Shown piece by piece: positions 5,572 through 10,354 of a stretch of DNA of 21,475 nt. The notes under the pieces are model-generated. The model searched no databases. It saw nothing but the letters and a program-made list of their open reading frames with translations, and was not told the origin of the DNA. The DNA is from a virus, in IMG/VR virus record IMGVR_UViG_3300037245_002164, positions 1 through 21,475 of that record; one strand, 5' to 3'. Both the position numbers and the translations under genes were made by a program. Position 1 is the stretch's first letter. Each line of letters starts with the position of its first letter.

Positions 5572-6422
5572 TATCCTGTGACCGGCGGCACCGCAGCCGC
5601 GTTGATATCGATGAGGTAATCGAGCCGTGCCCCGGCTTGAATGGGGAGCGAATACGCCGTGTCTTTGGGCACCTTGGTGCCCCGCACGTCATCGCGCGTT
5701 GCGTGCGGGTGGCTAATGATCTGAAACACGGGGTGGAAGTCGTAGAGCACGCTGTACGTCTGGCCGTCACTCACGGCGCTATTCCCCGGCGCGAGCCACT
5801 TGATCCACCCCTCTTCGCTCACTTCGAAATGGTAGCCTGATTCGAGTAGCGCGAACGAGTCTCCCGAATGATACGCCAGCCGCGTCACGGTGGTGATTCG
5901 GTAGCGGGCGGAATCATAGCCGTCTGGGAGCTTGCTCCGCCGGCCGCGTCGGTTCCCCTTCCGCAACAGCTCATTGAAGCTCATGAGTGCGTCTTCCATT
6001 TCGATGGAATCGCGGAAGCCGAGCCGGTACTGCGGGAGCACGGTGATTTGCACGTTGCCTTCGAGCCACATGCCGAACTTCTCGTAGATTTTGGTGGTCT
6101 TGTCGAAGCTCACCATGTGCGCGCGGATGCGGTGCTTGTCGACGTAGACGTAGCCCGAGCCATCGCAGTCCTCGCAATCGACTTGGGGCTGCCCCGTATC
6201 GCGGTTCTCGCACGGACAAAGCAGGGCCTTGCGCCACGTGACGTACTTGCCGTGCTGTCCGATGACCCGTTCGAACTCTTGGGGCCGAAAATCAGCCCGC
6301 GTCTTCTGCTTCGCGGGGTAGTCCTCGCTCGTGTCGTAGGCCCCGATGGTCAGCGGCACATCGACCGTTCGATCCGCGTGATCGACGGGCGCCGGGGGAG
6401 CGAGCTTCGAAGGGTCGGCCAT
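5571..6422 (-). CDS. Probable head-closure / neck protein with a four-cysteine zinc knuckle
   Basis: A 283-residue protein with a CPC...C..C cluster at residues 69, 71, 83 and 86, closely spaced like a zinc knuckle ('VDCEDCDGSGYVYV' follows). The rest is strand-rich: 'MWLEGNVQITVLPQYRLGF' around residues 117-136, and a C-terminal half with several beta segments. It sits just before the gp10-like gene, where head-closure or stopper proteins are encoded. The role is inferred from order; the zinc site is read directly from the sequence. The start ATG at 6422 has only a weak GCGGGG upstream. Confidence 0.55.
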   Translation of the reverse strand: MADPSKLAPPAPVDHADRTVDVPLTIGAYDTSEDYPAKQKTRADFRPQEFERVIGQHGKYVTWRKALLCPCENRDTGQPQVDCEDCDGSGYVYVDKHRIRAHMVSFDKTTKIYEKFGMWLEGNVQITVLPQYRLGFRDSIEMEDALMSFNELLRKGNRRGRRSKLPDGYDSARYRITTVTRLAYHSGDSFALLESGYHFEVSEEGWIKWLAPGNSAVSDGQTYSVLYDFHPVFQIISHPHATRDDVRGTKVPKDTAYSLPIQAGARLDYLIDINAAAVPPVTG

Positions 6423-6456
6423 GGCCCCGCAAGGTTAGCTCAGGGGCTCAGGATAA

Positions 6457-6990
6457 TCAGCTCCCTTGCTCTAGGATCTCTTTTTTGATCCGCTCTTGCA
6501 CGCGCGCCGTGGCTATGGGGTCGAGCCGCCACATCGGCGGAATGGGCTCCGGCGATGGCTCGTACGTCACCACCGTCTCATCGTCGTGCCACTTGCCGCC
6601 CGTCACCATGAGCCCGGCGGGGACTGGCATCCCGCGCTTCGGGCGTGACATTGCACCGGCTGCGCAATCGAACACCTTCCCCTTCGAGACACAAACAAGA
6701 TGGCTCAGGTAGCCTTCCCGGTCTGGGTTCCGGTGCGTGATACCCACCGACCATGCGTAGTGCGGCATTGGATCGTAGTGCCCGTCCACGCGTCGGCTAA
6801 CCCATTCGACGAACGCCCAATTCATTGCGACGGCATCCATGCTCGCAAGGCGCGCGGGTATCCCCTTGGCGCGCAAGATTTCCTGGCAGTGGTACGCGGC
6901 GGGAATGCACACGTCTTTCCGCCCGTACTCCGCGAACACGATGCTAGGGAGCTGCGCGACAAGACGCGCGAATAGCTCAGAGCGCTTCAT
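6457..6990 (-). CDS. Transglutaminase-like (papain-fold) protein
   Basis: A 177-residue protein with the signature of a transglutaminase-like core. Cys28 begins a helix ('CIPAAYHCQEILRAKGIPAR', residues 28-47) that matches the canonical pattern of catalytic Cys, helix, 'RA.GIPAR'. His97 lies in 'SHLVCV', and Asp108 in 'KVFDCAAG' completes a Cys-His-Asp triad in the usual order and spacing. Such folds act as peptidases, amidases or acyl transferases, and in phages may act on cell-wall peptides or cross-link proteins. It is the first gene of the tail block, 6991 onwards being its promoter region. Translation starts almost at the predicted transcription start, so a leaderless message is possible. 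The target is unknown. Confidence 0.6.
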   Translation of the reverse strand: MKRSELFARLVAQLPSIVFAEYGRKDVCIPAAYHCQEILRAKGIPARLASMDAVAMNWAFVEWVSRRVDGHYDPMPHYAWSVGITHRNPDREGYLSHLVCVSKGKVFDCAAGAMSRPKRGMPVPAGLMVTGGKWHDDETVVTYEPSPEPIPPMWRLDPIATARVQERIKKEILEQGS

Positions 6991-6996
6991 CCCCTC

Positions 6997-7025
6997 AGTA
7001 TACCACGCATCGTATACGATTGCAA
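6997..7025 (-). promoter_or_regulatory. Sigma70-like promoter for the tail block, spacer contains a 12-bp palindrome
   Basis: On the minus strand TTGCAA (7025-7020) and TATACT (7002-6997) are separated by exactly 17 bases. The -10 matches the consensus at five of six positions. Transcription would begin near 6991-6989, on top of the ATG of the transglutaminase-like gene. The spacer contains most of the perfect palindrome ATCGTATACGAT (7009-7020), a good candidate operator. A second, overlapping candidate is TTTACA (7036-7031) with TACGAT (7014-7009), spacing 16, which would give a short leader. Confidence 0.55.
7009..7020. promoter_or_regulatory. Perfect 12-bp palindrome, probable operator
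   Basis: ATCGTATACGAT is self-complementary and lies between the -35 and -10 of the minus-strand promoter, where a bound dimer would block RNA polymerase. The regulator is not known; the nearby HTH protein (7639-7983) is a candidate by proximity only. Confidence 0.45.
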
Positions 7026-7044
7026 ATGCCTGTAAAACGTGAGG

Positions 7045-7074
7045 CTATACGGTCGGTTTGACATTCTATACGGT
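7045..7074 (+). repeat. Direct repeat CTATACGGT x2, 21 bases apart
   Basis: CTATACGGT occurs at 7045-7053 and 7066-7074. The 21-base spacing is two helical turns, so two proteins would bind the same face of the DNA. One copy is upstream of the -35 of the plus-strand promoter and one is inside its spacer. The second copy is also half of an inverted repeat. Confidence 0.5.
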
Positions 7075-7086
7075 GGACCGTACTCT
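7058..7086 (+). promoter_or_regulatory. Plus-strand sigma70-like promoter with inverted-repeat operator
   Basis: A perfect TTGACA (7058-7063) is followed after 17 bases by TACTCT (7081-7086), a weaker -10. The spacer holds the inverted repeat TACGGT-GG-ACCGTA (7069-7082), which overlaps the -10. The promoter drives the DUF6011-like gene starting at 7109. The arrangement suggests a repressible promoter. It is divergent from the minus-strand tail promoter about 60 bases away. Confidence 0.6.
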
Positions 7087-7108
7087 TTAGGTGAAGGGAT
7101 TACGGACC

Positions 7109-7555
7109 ATGGACACCAACGAAATGCGCGGACGACTTCTCACCCCAGCCTTTGCGAAAGCGTACGCGCTCGCGGGCAACGCCACATTCACTGTGCTGAA
7201 CCCGGAGACCGGCAACCGCTTCACGTACAAGATCAAGCGCAAGGAAGTCGAAGAGAACAAAGAACTCTTTTTCGTCGGCTTGCTGAGCGGACCCGACAAC
7301 GATTCTGACTACTCGTTCCTCGGAACGATCTTCGACGCTGAGAAGTTCGTGCACGGACGCAAGAGCCAGATCACCGAAGCCGCGCCGAGCGCGCGAGCCT
7401 TCCGATGGCTTTGGAAGCGTTTCAATGACGACGCTGACTTCGCGCCCGCCGAGTTTTGGCACGAGGGGCGCTGCGGCCGATGTGGTCGTAAGCTCACGGT
7501 GCCGGAGAGCATTGAACGCGGGCTTGGTCCCGTGTGCGCGGGCTGGGGTCAGTAA
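7109..7555 (+). CDS. DUF6011-like protein with C-terminal zinc motif
   Basis: A 148-residue protein whose C-terminal segment 'CGRCGRKLTVPESIERGLGP' (residues 122-141) followed by Cys143 is the characteristic DUF6011 pattern: two closely spaced cysteines, a Leu-Thr-x-Pro-x-Ser-Ile segment, then Gly-x-Gly-Pro-x-Cys. Three cysteines (122, 125, 143), perhaps with His118, would bind one zinc. The N-terminal 115 residues look alpha/beta and are unrecognised. Proteins with this tail are common in phages and plasmids; their function is unknown. I chose ATG 7109 over the upstream in-frame GTG 7091 because AAGGGA lies about 10 bases before it. It is transcribed opposite to the surrounding structural genes. 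Confidence 0.8.
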   Translation: MDTNEMRGRLLTPAFAKAYALAGNATFTVLNPETGNRFTYKIKRKEVEENKELFFVGLLSGPDNDSDYSFLGTIFDAEKFVHGRKSQITEAAPSARAFRWLWKRFNDDADFAPAEFWHEGRCGRCGRKLTVPESIERGLGPVCAGWGQ

Positions 7556-7564
7556 GACGCTGGC

Positions 7565-7605
7565 TTGACAAGCGTCTACGGTCCGTCGAGTATGACGGAT
7601 CGTAG
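7565..7605 (+). promoter_or_regulatory. TTGACA element followed by a 12-bp-arm inverted repeat upstream of the HTH gene
   Basis: TTGACA (7565-7570) is a perfect -35 box, but no clear -10 follows at 16-18 bases (GAGTAT at 17). From 7576 to 7605 there is an inverted repeat: CTACGGTCCGTC (7576-7587), loop GAGTAT, GACGGATCGTAG (7594-7605), with 11 of 12 positions complementary and the last a G-U pair in RNA. No T-run follows, so it is not a simple terminator. TACGGT is shared with the operator-like repeats at 7045-7082, which suggests a common regulator. It could be an operator, an RNA hairpin covering the 5' leader, or both. Confidence 0.5.
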
Positions 7606-7638
7606 CTCTACAACCGACAACCCCGAAGGGAACCCCCG

Positions 7639-7983
7639 ATGCCCGCAAAGGCAAACACCACGCGCGTCAAGCGACGCAAGTTCACCCCCGCACAGAAACA
7701 AAAGTACGTCGCTGAAGCCGACCGTACGAGCGCGACCGCAGTCGCCAAAAAGCACAAGCTCAGCTCCGCACTGGTCTACAGATGGAAGGCGCAGCTTCAA
7801 GCCGTTGCGAAGTCCACATCCGTGCCGAAGGCCAAGACCAAGCGGCGTCGCAAGTCGCGCACACGGAGCACGAAGCTCGTACAGTTTGCGAAGACGAATG
7901 CCCTCGAAACCGAGAATCAGAGGCTTCGGAACATGGTCGTCGACCAGCTCTTGGTCATCCAAGAGCTACAGCACAGCGCGTGA
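7639..7983 (+). CDS. HTH protein resembling IS3-family transposase OrfA
   Basis: A 114-residue, very basic protein. Residues about 14-53 ('RKFTPAQKQKYVAEA..TSATAVAKKHKLSSALVYRWK') are the helix-turn-helix of the transposase OrfA type, with the typical 'F..eqK..vv.e...' start and the terminal 'vyrWk' helix. A Lys/Arg-rich linker (about 60-78) follows, then a probable leucine-zipper coiled coil (about 84-112, 'LETENQRLRNMVVDQLLVIQ'). In IS3 elements this coil dimerises OrfA, but no OrfB/DDE integrase gene or inverted repeats are seen here. It more likely acts as a stand-alone DNA-binding regulator. A strong GAAGGGA lies 7 bases before the ATG. The 3' end overlaps the convergent intein-like gene by 18 bases. 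Confidence 0.75.
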   Translation: MPAKANTTRVKRRKFTPAQKQKYVAEADRTSATAVAKKHKLSSALVYRWKAQLQAVAKSTSVPKAKTKRRRKSRTRSTKLVQFAKTNALETENQRLRNMVVDQLLVIQELQHSA

Positions 7984-9243
7984 GTCTCCAAGCGCCAGAT
8001 GATTCGCTAGGAAGATGTGCGGCTCGTCGTCCACTTCCACGCAATACATGAGCGCTTGAGTGATCGGCTCTGCATCCACCACGCCGACTTTGGCGTGGTG
8101 GTAGTGCAGCCCATCGGGGATTTCCAAGCTGAGCTTGCTGAGCCAATCGAATGCTGCCGGCCGGCGAAGCGCCAAGCCTTGCGACTCCGTGCGCGCGAGG
8201 CTCGTACGGTCGAGCTGATCTAGCTCTCGGAACGTCGGGCTCGCCACGCACGCGCGAACGATGGTCTGCGACGTGGACACAGGCAGAACATCCCAGCGCC
8301 CCGCACGGAAGGGTTCGCGCGCGTAGTCGCGGGAAGGCTCTTGCCGGAGCGAGGCAACTTGCTCCATGTAACTCTCCACGTCGGAGACCCGGATCTTGTG
8401 CACCGGACCGTCGCCGCCCCGCTTTTCGTGCGCCGCAATGCCCACACTCCAAAGGCACCGCAGTGCGGACTGGCGGAGCTGGGGCGGGTGTAGGTAGAGC
8501 ACGGGAGCGTTGTAGGTGTTATCCCATCGGCTTGCGCTCGCGAAGAGCCCCTTGAGCAACGCCTCGCGAATCCACGCCGGCCCCTGGAAAAAGCGGTTCG
8601 GGATGGTCTGCACTTCCGCGCTCGACCGGAACCCCAGATCCCGTAGCCATTGCTGAAAGCCCCGGTCCCAGATCGAGAGCATGGCGTGCTCGCCCTCGGA
8701 GCGCATGGCCGGGATCTCGTGGCGGTCACACATCGATTCGAACGTGTCGAGCAAGGGCTCGTCGGGCAGCGTAGGCGCGAAGACCCGAAATGACTCCGTG
8801 CGCAGCTCTTTGTCAGGAAAGTAGCCGCTTCCGAGCGCGTACCCGAGCAAGTGCCAGATGCCCGGATCTTCGAGTAGGGTGCGGGTAGGCGACCAGCCCC
8901 GGAAGTCGAGCCCTTCGAAGAAAGTCGACCCATTCAGCGCTGTATCCTCGCGTCGGTAGCTCATGAGCACGCGGTCACCCGCCTTGATCGCCCGTTGCTC
9001 GCGCCACAGGGGGGCTCCTAGGGCGCTCTCTGAGGGGACGACCGCTAGGGGCTGATCGGGGCTCACGAGCACGGAGAGCCCGTTTGTGAGCGCTAGGCGG
9101 GCCACAGAGGCGACTCCCACGGTGCGGACGCGCGCGGGCTCGTAGCATTGCCCCGTCCACACCTCGAAAGGGGTGTTTGCGAGAGCTTCGACGGGGGCGA
9201 GACCACGTGACGTGGTGATCAGAGTGCCGGGGGAGAGCGCCAT
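7966..9243 (-). CDS. Free-standing intein-like protein (Hint domain + LAGLIDADG), predicted inactive
   Basis: A 425-residue ORF that looks like a complete intein with no exteins. Block A-like 'ALSPGTLITTSRGLAPVEAL' (residues 2-21) has Ala where intein Cys1 normally sits. Block B-like 'GLSVLVSPDQPLAVV' (55-69) has Gln where the splicing His is expected. 'IKAGDRVLM' (86-94) is a normal Hint segment. Block F-like 'YCVEVDDEPHIFLAN' (400-414) keeps the His and carries Cys at the usual Asp position. The C-end reads 'LGDS' (418-421), so the usual His-Asn is Gly-Asp. The LAGLIDADG motifs 'LLGYALGSG' (132-140) and 'LKGLFASAS' (230-238) have Ser and Ala in place of the catalytic acids. ATG at 9243 lies 25 bases after the neck gene, whose stop is in another frame, and an in-frame stop at 9282-9280 limits any N-extein to about a dozen residues. 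Only five residues follow the block G region. Confidence 0.8.
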   Translation of the reverse strand: MALSPGTLITTSRGLAPVEALANTPFEVWTGQCYEPARVRTVGVASVARLALTNGLSVLVSPDQPLAVVPSESALGAPLWREQRAIKAGDRVLMSYRREDTALNGSTFFEGLDFRGWSPTRTLLEDPGIWHLLGYALGSGYFPDKELRTESFRVFAPTLPDEPLLDTFESMCDRHEIPAMRSEGEHAMLSIWDRGFQQWLRDLGFRSSAEVQTIPNRFFQGPAWIREALLKGLFASASRWDNTYNAPVLYLHPPQLRQSALRCLWSVGIAAHEKRGGDGPVHKIRVSDVESYMEQVASLRQEPSRDYAREPFRAGRWDVLPVSTSQTIVRACVASPTFRELDQLDRTSLARTESQGLALRRPAAFDWLSKLSLEIPDGLHYHHAKVGVVDAEPITQALMYCVEVDDEPHIFLANHLALGDSRAVL

Positions 9244-9268
9244 GCCCCGCTTATACGTCGGGCCGTTG

Positions 9269-10354
9269 TTACGCCCAAGTCATTTTGATGCCCCGATACC
9301 ACTGCTTGTACATCGGGATCGCGGCCTTGATCTCTTTCAGGTAGTTGCCGACTCGCGCGCCGTAGCCGCTGTTCGTCGCGCTCGATGTGGTGCCGATGGC
9401 TTGGCTCAGCCCATCCATGCTCAGGGAGATATTCGCGATGCCCGCGCCGGCAATGAGATCACCGAAAATGTGGAAGGGGCCGATGGACGCCATCATGCCG
9501 ATCAGGTTGATGATATCGGCGGGGATCTTCCCGTCCTCGAATCCCGCCGTGTAGCTCACTTCGAAAAGCTCAGGGAGATAGTCGAGCCCGTTGTAGATAG
9601 CCGGCAAGAAGCTGCCGCCTTGGCCGACAAGGATCTCGGAAAGCGTTCCGCTCGTCGGCACGATCTGCACGTGCCCTTCGAGCTTGCTCAGCCGAATCCA
9701 TTCGCCGGGGAAAATGATGACGTTCTGCCCCGATGGGTACTGCACCCGGAACTCGTCGACGCTGACCACCGGGGTGTTATCCAAGTGGATGAAGTTGAAC
9801 GAGTGATAGTCGTTCCGATAGTAGTCGTGCTTCTCGACAAACGTGGTCGGCAAGAGCGGGATATCGACCTGCTTCTCGAAGCCCCGAATCGCCGCCATGA
9901 TGTACGAAAGGTACACGTCGTCTCCGAGCGGTTCGCCTTTGTCATTCGTCAGGTCGAGCCCGAACATGTAGCGACTCTTCAGTTGCTCGACCGTTAGGAT
10001 ATTGCGGACCGCCAAGCCCGCACCGAGCATGGATGGGCTGGGGTCTGTGCACGCCTTCTCGCCCTTGATCGTGCCGACGTAGCGGGTGCGGTAGAGGTAG
10101 CCGGGATCGCCGCAACGGTCGAAGAACTCGTAGACGAACTGATCGGCCTTGAGCACGGGCCGCTCCGGTGCGTGCGAAATCTCTTCGTACGTGAGCCCCT
10201 GATCAGTGCTGCGCTCGACCGATAAGCGCTCGAAGCCCGCGTCGATGGCCACGGCAATCTTCGGGTCATTCGTCGTGACCCGAATGACGTTTCCTTGCGC
10301 GCGGGTATCAATGCCGCTGTTCTCTGCCGCATCGATTGGATTTACCTGGCCCAT
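9269..10354 (-). CDS. Neck / head-tail adaptor structural protein
   Basis: A 361-residue protein. Residues about 1-110 form a beta-rich N-terminal domain resembling an Ig/fibronectin-type module ('GNVIRVTTNDPKIAVAIDAG', 'FVYEFFDRCGDPGYLYRTRY'). Residues about 118-361 resemble head-tail adaptor (connector) proteins of large myoviruses: a helical stretch 'LTVEQLKSRYMFGLDL', then 'YHSFNFIHLDNTPVVSVDEF' (about 183-202), and a final helical part with Gly/Ala/Ser-rich 'GAGIANISLSMDGLSQAIG'. The latter resembles the gp6-like connector families, where an 'ISVDGLSQSI' stretch occurs before a basic C-terminal helix. Adaptors sit under the portal and link head to neck. A GGGGGGATC purine tract precedes the ATG. 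The role is inferred from family memory and position. Confidence 0.65.
   Translation of the reverse strand: MGQVNPIDAAENSGIDTRAQGNVIRVTTNDPKIAVAIDAGFERLSVERSTDQGLTYEEISHAPERPVLKADQFVYEFFDRCGDPGYLYRTRYVGTIKGEKACTDPSPSMLGAGLAVRNILTVEQLKSRYMFGLDLTNDKGEPLGDDVYLSYIMAAIRGFEKQVDIPLLPTTFVEKHDYYRNDYHSFNFIHLDNTPVVSVDEFRVQYPSGQNVIIFPGEWIRLSKLEGHVQIVPTSGTLSEILVGQGGSFLPAIYNGLDYLPELFEVSYTAGFEDGKIPADIINLIGMMASIGPFHIFGDLIAGAGIANISLSMDGLSQAIGTTSSATNSGYGARVGNYLKEIKAAIPMYKQWYRGIKMTWA

Follow-up and report, generated by a model that had tools for sequence, protein, structure and literature searches.

A free-standing phage gene of intein descent that has lost its catalytic residues and is probably domesticated for binding

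The fs gene and its lost catalytic residues

The window analysed here is the whole of a 21,475-nt stretch of viral DNA (IMG/VR record IMGVR_UViG_3300037245_002164, positions 1 to 21,475). Its minus strand holds a head-and-tail cluster, with PHROG matches to a portal, a head protease, a major head protein and a tail sheath, and the same strand carries a free-standing open reading frame (ORF) at 7966-9243 that resembles an intein without a host protein. This ORF is named fs, and the neighbouring gene at 9269-10354 is named nb. A sequence-only reading of the window had described the ORF as a free-standing intein, Hint plus LAGLIDADG, with both activities apparently lost; its coordinates are correct, and the strand, which it did not state, is minus. 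The two genes are laid out as follows.

7966..9243, minus strand: fs, free-standing dead intein gene, 425 aa, Hint plus predicted LAGLIDADG; ATG at 9243, stop ending at 7966
8953..9240, minus strand: Hint N-terminal half of fs, residues 2-97, blocks A and B; Ala replaces Cys1, and block B reads SPDQ, with Gln replacing His
8818..8856, minus strand: LAGLIDADG motif 1 (block C), residues 130-142; acid position Ser139
8521..8562, minus strand: LAGLIDADG motif 2 (block E), residues 228-241; acid position Ala237
7984..8049, minus strand: blocks F and G, residues 399-420; end Gly-Asp, not His-Asn
7966..7983, minus strand: tail codons SRAVL plus stop; 18-nt overlap with the end of the convergent 7639-7983 gene
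9269..10354, minus strand: nb, putative head/neck gene with a PHROG match; intein site empty in the window, host of a mini-intein in three relatives

Relatives of fs are encoded at seven viral loci. Those in L003, L004 and L006 are identical over their overlaps, as are L007 and L008, and L013 adds only a 5' fragment; the distinct full-length set is five sequences, window included (window, L002, L003, L005 and L007). All five stand alone, at the same place and without exteins. In the window the gene starts 25 nt past the nb stop, and the frame upstream of its ATG is open for 12 codons to the preceding stop without an ATG, GTG or TTG. The tail after Asp420 is five residues long, SRAVL, and beyond the Hint end the five sequences have only SR(A/T)VL. 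The ORF begins at block A and ends five residues past block G, as the sequence-only reading had it, and none of the five full-length sequences is joined to exteins.

Key residues were read by alignment with two intact inteins, those of huge-phage DNA polymerases, and are given in the order window, L002, L003, L005, L007. Position 1, which is Cys1 in inteins, is A,A,A,A,S (Ala2 in the window), and the block-B His position is Gln in all five (Gln64). The first LAGLIDADG acid position is S,S,N,G,S (Ser139) and the second is Ala throughout (Ala237). In block F the Asp position is C,C,Y,A,R (Cys401) and the His position H,H,H,H,A (His409, with Ala in L007), while the Hint ends in Gly-Asp in 5/5 (Gly419-Asp420) where inteins have His-Asn, the sequence Gly-Asp then Ser being constant. 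Position B:12 is Leu in all five (Leu66). Every one of these window residues had been read correctly from the window, and the loss of nuclease and canonical splicing residues extends to all five sequences. A nucleophilic role for Ser1 of L007 is conceivable, but that sequence, too, lacks the His and the Asn; the penultimate Gly is no defect in itself, as six phage ribonucleotide reductase (RNR) inteins end Gly-Gln before Cys. The gene is not a cis-splicing intein: the nucleophile at position 1, block-B His, terminal Asn and host-protein frame are missing. Both LAGLIDADG catalytic acids are lost in 5/5.

Could the block-F Cys of the window protein have taken over as a nucleophile? Class 3 inteins are defined by Trp at B:12, Cys at F:4 and Thr at G:5 (PMC5222942, in the part available). 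In fs, B:12 is Leu in every sequence, as had been noticed in the window, and F:4 is Cys in only two of the five. Since the block-F position varies so freely, the class-3-like or protease role that had been proposed for this Cys fails, and the window Cys is no conserved nucleophile.

Intein descent and maintenance of fs

Searches with the window fs protein gave no hit to Pfam or NCBIfam (E<=10), PHROG (E<=0.01) or PADLOC, so its assignment rests on relatives and predicted fold. It has no plasmid match, and three weak matches among phages (best E 0.03) are to RNR inteins and to LR745208. Local profile-profile comparison with five sets of phage inteins gave probabilities of 91.9-96.9% for four of them and 71.3% for the remaining one, which consists of four close RNR inteins. 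In the controls no probability exceeded 1.0% after column shuffling (20 shuffles for each of three sets, 60 comparisons) or 0.6% with the alignment reversed (four sets, 4 comparisons). Of the relatives found, those closest over the full length are huge-phage inteins, in LR745208.1 (485 kb; L029/L043) and on the 497 kb contig L044, which align with fs by hhalign at 97.5% over 386 columns. The L029 extein matches DNA_pol_A (1.7e-12), and the flanks of the intein in the L044 ORF are the same. These polymerase inteins share with fs the full-length architecture, including the stretch after the nuclease domain, and the motifs VWTG and MYxxEV; in the seven-sequence alignment (the five fs proteins and the two intact inteins) PGIWHLLGYALGSGYF lies opposite PVLWEFLGMVYGDGSL and REALLKGLFASAS opposite RAAFLRGYFSADG. 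Unlike fs, they interrupt a family A DNA polymerase in frame and keep Cys1, the block-B His, both Asp and the His-Asn end. Profile scans of viral contigs returned the same seven loci for fs and the same six for the polymerase inteins, and neither of two scans of bacterial genome contigs, run with the fs alignment and the polymerase inteins respectively, yielded a confirmed relative; these scans depend on short exact patterns, which distant kin may escape.

The predicted structure points the same way. An AlphaFold model of fs built from the seven sequences has a mean predicted local distance difference test score (pLDDT) of 64.8 and a predicted template modelling score of 0.54, with a helical stretch at residues 322-370. 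All 12 PDB chains that Foldseek matched to it at E<=0.001 are inteins, TliVMA being the best (4e-11); 11 of the 12 are nuclease-bearing (TliVMA, PhoVMA, PI-PfuI, PI-PkoII and PI-SceI), and I-DmoI follows with E from 0.002. VIA-align superposed the model on the NpuDnaB intein with Z 17.4 (129 residues, 1.7 Å) and on the TliVMA intein with Z 15.9 (301 residues, 6.4 Å). A Hint domain with blocks A, B, F and G is shown for fs; a LAGLIDADG fold, predicted from the motifs and the model, is well supported, as is intein descent. In the viral predicted-structure search, 49 of the best 50 of 175 targets (E<=0.001) exceed 450 aa, as for inteins in larger proteins, so a stand-alone intein is unusual there. 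The only one of those best 50 at stand-alone intein size is a marseillevirus DOD-type protein of 358 aa (BFVD A0A481YWE8).

The frame of fs has been kept. Nonsynonymous to synonymous rate ratios (omega, Nei-Gojobori) are 0.16-0.40 over the 10 pairs, and the differences between the window and L007 fall 103/95/188 on the three codon positions. All five frames are open at up to 32% nucleotide difference. Neutral simulation to the L007 divergence left 0 of 2000 frames without a stop; for the nearer relatives L005, L003 and L002 the number left open was 5, 8 and 144 of 2000, and the nearest pair alone would not exclude decay. Open frames and omega together argue against simple decay, with five sequences only. 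Distances between fs genes track those between nb genes (r 0.95, 10 non-independent pairs), as for vertical descent. These results support the view that fs is passed on together with the genome and is preserved although its catalytic residues are gone, and the intact frame had already been remarked on in the window. Within the gene, the LAGLIDADG part (residues 120-300) has ratios of nonsynonymous to synonymous differences per site (pN/pS) of 0.06-0.43 and is the lowest of four regions in 5/6 pairs without L007.

The nb gene, its mini-intein and the surroundings

The gene next door has a match to PHROG 772 (annotated as tail fiber protein) and a weak one to 442 (head-tail adaptor), and is 39.6% identical to SPO1 gp6.3 over 65% of its length; from these matches and its position it is read as a probable head/neck gene. 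In relatives of the window, fs adjoins the site of a mobile splicing element, something the window alone could not reveal: a mini-intein of 140 residues interrupts nb after codon 328 in L012, L013 and L014. L012 is the same as L002, L014 as L005, L009 as L003 and L004, and L010 as L011. The element and the site it occupies are given below.

L012:6985-7404, L013:3934-4353, L014:6985-7404: mini-intein in nb, without homing endonuclease, 140 aa
9350..9409, minus strand: nb codons 316-335 around the insertion point (between 9371 and 9370); synonymous divergence peak

The mini-intein has no room for a nuclease and keeps Cys1, the block-B His, the block-F Asp and His and the terminal His-Asn invariant, followed by Ser. 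The NCBIfam models intein_Nterm and intein_Cterm score above cut-off on the L012 and L014 copies and below it on that of L013, and all three copies hit Pfam Intein_splicing below its cut-off (E 2e-6 to 3e-5). The site is empty in the window, in L009 and L010 and in the outgroups L018 and L020, and the contigs L015, L016 and L017 stop before it. It is thus filled in 3/6 lineages that bear fs and in 0/2 that do not, too few for an association between mini-intein and fs. The mini-inteins of L012 and L014 are 81% identical and those of L012 and L013 61%, while the nb synonymous divergence (dS) of the same pairs is 0.62 and 0.34. This conflict indicates that the nuclease-free mini-intein has passed from one phage to another. 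On either side of the L012 and L013 mini-inteins, 2 and 1 of 60 nt differ.

By BLAST the best partner of fs is this mini-intein (54 bits, against 41 for the next best intein). Thus fs may have arisen as its duplicate, but the Hint tree (154 columns, 21 sequences) gives no supported sister placement, with 84.8/57 at the deciding node. The sequence-only suggestion that fs could be a trans-acting intein partner is not supported: a Hint search of 12 related records (seven also with PF14890) found, besides fs, only the complete nb mini-intein with its own C1, H, D, H and HN, although most of these records are fragments and a partner could lie elsewhere.

Codons 316-335 of nb rank first of 342 windows for synonymous divergence (shuffle P 0.005 for the maximum, six sequences). 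A residue-matched comparison gave P 0.0014 for codons 315-334, a 20-codon window that was set after a first look at 60-nt windows, so that this P is not fully blind. The encoded residues, TTSSATNS, do not vary, while the codons of three of the serines (324, 325 and 329) are AGY in some sequences and TCN in others. The peak test was given 14 of the 24 window genes, of which three (g6422, g5571 and g4768) were dropped with fewer than five genomes covering them; among the 11 genes tested likewise in five genomes, only nb has a peak with P <0.05 (0.007; the others at least 0.12, all uncorrected for 11 genes). The peak would be expected either if the site had escaped cutting or if past homing had imported flanks, and the two are inseparable here; it hints at past homing. 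Four contigs end or start just before the site, L015 and L016 at 25 nt, L017 at 136 nt and L019 (the same as L003) at 124 nt, as if the assembly had split on mixed filled and empty alleles.

On its other side fs has three companion genes, and a possible promoter lies just upstream of its start.

7639..7983, plus strand: HTH_Tnp_1 gene, convergent to fs; seen in L003, L006, L009, L010, L012 and L014
7091..7555, plus strand: DUF6011 gene; same loci
6457..6990, minus strand: gene of 177 aa with no hit in Pfam; same loci, unmatched in the outgroup loci L018 and L020
9250..9255, minus strand: TATAAG box, possible promoter of a leaderless message, 6 nt before the fs ATG

An fs profile found no match in the complete L018 and L020 records, and neither fs nor its companions (7639-7983, 7091-7555, 6990-6457) has a match at the L018 and L020 loci, where the first homolog past nb corresponds to window 6422-5571. 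From this absence in the outgroups, fs and its companions arrived as, or grew into, an insertion. The HTH_Tnp_1 gene is transposase OrfA-like, and no transposase partner was found among the neighbouring genes searched. Its end overlaps that of fs by 18 nt in the window, L009, L010, L012 and L014, and the constant SRAVL tail can be explained by these 18 nt also ending the convergent gene. The idea that SRAVL is a released peptide was set aside on the same ground.

The box TATAAG/TATAAA occurs once on the window minus strand, 17 nt after TTGGGC. It lies immediately upstream of fs in the window, L009, L012, L013 and L014, whereas in L010 it precedes an inserted small gene; as a scan with the sigma-70 consensus called no promoter at TATAAG, the box is a lead only. 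The small genes between nb and fs in L010 (7087-7460, 117 aa) and L014 (7507-7766, 62 aa, hydrophobic) are unlike each other, and neither has a Pfam match. The nb-fs junction looks like an insertion hot spot. A frameshift fusion of fs to nb as a conserved design was rejected, because in L010 and L014 these other genes lie between the two.

What fs may have been and may now do

Several known systems resemble fs in part. In yeast, HO and WHO are stand-alone intein-derived genes, WHO lying mostly downstream of the gene it targets, with resistance arising from allelic differences (PMC7282813, in the part available). Like fs they have no exteins, and fs lies downstream of nb as most WHO genes lie downstream of their targets; unlike fs they have a C-terminal zinc finger, and HO is an active nuclease, according to the same portion of that source. 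A CxxC zinc-finger motif was sought in the five fs sequences and not found. Some WHO clusters carry 3'-end copies of the target gene (PMC7282813, same portion); the last 600 nt of nb have no match over 15 nt in window 6300-9268 (best E 0.34). By this analogy fs would be the phage counterpart of HO/WHO in layout and descent, without the zinc finger and without the catalytic acids. WhiA likewise has a LAGLIDADG domain without nuclease activity that its organism has kept, but it has a helix-turn-helix domain and no Hint (PMC11701221, as far as its available text goes). The PhoVMA intein has lost an active-site Asp and kept its fold, but is still inside its host protein (PMC8966425, available in part). 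Free-standing phage homing genes also lie beside genes with mobile splicing elements, but they are nucleases that act with introns, whereas fs has a Hint and no catalytic acids (PMC10448857, in its accessible portion). No phage free-standing dead intein appeared among the matches listed in the open-licence literature (titles and abstract beginnings).

The history that best accounts for these observations is that fs is an intein that would have left its host protein. Its ancestor would have been an active full-length intein with Hint and LAGLIDADG domains, and the nearest kin of fs are such inteins in huge-phage DNA polymerases; in the simplest course of events the catalytic residues would have been lost once, before these phages split. 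Since then the gene would have been handed down along with the genome, under the purifying selection that the omega values support. Today fs would work by binding, not by catalysis, on an intein scaffold. It is thus probably an intein-derived homing protein of HO/WHO-like layout that has lost both enzymes and been domesticated as a non-catalytic binding protein. Whether it would serve late functions as a protein-binding accessory or bind DNA is about equally likely either way; its partner may be DNA at an old homing site, the head/neck protein or something else. The recruitment that the sequence-only reading had thought of survives in this form, the gene being kept by selection, while its protease-like alternative falls with the variable block-F position.

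Several observations weigh against this account. Taken alone, the LAGLIDADG part is weak by sequence (8.2%, 0.9% and 0.2%, and 0.7% against the polymerase inteins), and the best PDB profile match of fs, to PI-PkoII over residues 119-285, is suggestive only at E 0.098. Residues 141-192 of the model have pLDDT <50; the alignment behind it held the two intact inteins, which may steer the model, and without them (5 sequences) it is unusable at pLDDT 43. Purifying selection on fs is milder than on nb, where omega is 0.09-0.17, and in the pairs with L007 the LAGLIDADG region is lowest in 0/4, at pN/pS 0.40-0.43 against 0.30-0.40 for the Hint C-terminus. Only five distinct full-length sequences stand behind these comparisons.

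Could fs instead be a selfish element in decay, a WHO-like phage homing gene in its dead phase with no present function? Homing genes usually gather inactivating mutations after invasion (PMC13405050, in the part available), PhoVMA provides the precedent of a dead nuclease (PMC8966425, likewise), the synonymous peak in nb could have been left by past homing, and the outgroups have no fs gene. Yet five open frames across divergences of up to 32%, with omega at 0.16-0.40 and no open frame among 2000 simulated for L007, make such decay unlikely, even though the simulated counts for L005, L003 and L002 (5, 8 and 144) mean that the nearest pair by itself would leave room for it. If the nuclease is dead, its binding may have outlived it: as a special case of the domestication account, fs could still bind the nb intein site and shield or regulate it. 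The low pN/pS of the LAGLIDADG region in 5/6 pairs without L007, the synonymous peak at the site and the example of WhiA, a LAGLIDADG protein that serves as a transcription factor and has no nuclease activity (PMC11701221, available in part), would suit this; but the region is lowest in none of the four L007 pairs, and codon change at the site would be less needed if it were shielded. The central region of fs is net negative (-2.6 to -4.5) and the two polymerase inteins, its nearest active relatives, are basic (+7.2 and +9.1), as is the Gizmo portal intein (+6.4), a difference that hints away from DNA; but among RNR inteins whose acids look by eye to be in place the values run from -3.8 to +4.1, and CcrC1, without clear LAGLIDADG motifs, has -8.9, so that the controls overlap and net charge does not decide on DNA binding. 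Binding to this particular site is, on balance, quite unlikely. Its extension into a guard, in which the dead free-standing homing endonuclease recognises the nb intein site and controls who homes there while endonuclease-less mini-inteins circulate and synonymous codons escape cutting, is a very unlikely one.

A more active part in homing would be for fs to move the nb mini-intein in trans. The two are adjacent, the mini-intein has spread sideways without a nuclease (81% and 61% identity against nb dS of 0.62 and 0.34), and free-standing nucleases that act with nearby introns are known (PMC10448857, in its available part). However, both acids are absent from all five fs proteins, the gene persists beside empty sites in the window, L009 and L010, and ordinary phage recombination can move a mini-intein, which leaves such collaboration highly improbable. 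Self-cleavage by the Hint, through the block-F Cys or as release of SRAVL after Asp420, would draw on the Gly-Asp then Ser end that is constant in 5/5 and on the six RNR inteins with a penultimate Gly of their own; it meets a block-F position that reads C,C,Y,A,R, a block-F His that is Ala in L007 and a block-B His replaced by Gln in all, and the 18-nt overlap with the convergent gene explains the constancy of the tail. There is little reason to expect it.

Domestication for binding thus remains the preferred reading of fs. Free-standing descendants of inteins have been described for yeast, as HO and WHO. If the reading is true, fs shows in a phage that an intein scaffold can be kept for binding alone after both of its active sites are lost. 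The nb site, with a mini-intein that comes and goes and a dead relative next door, would then be a place to test homing, escape and domestication together.

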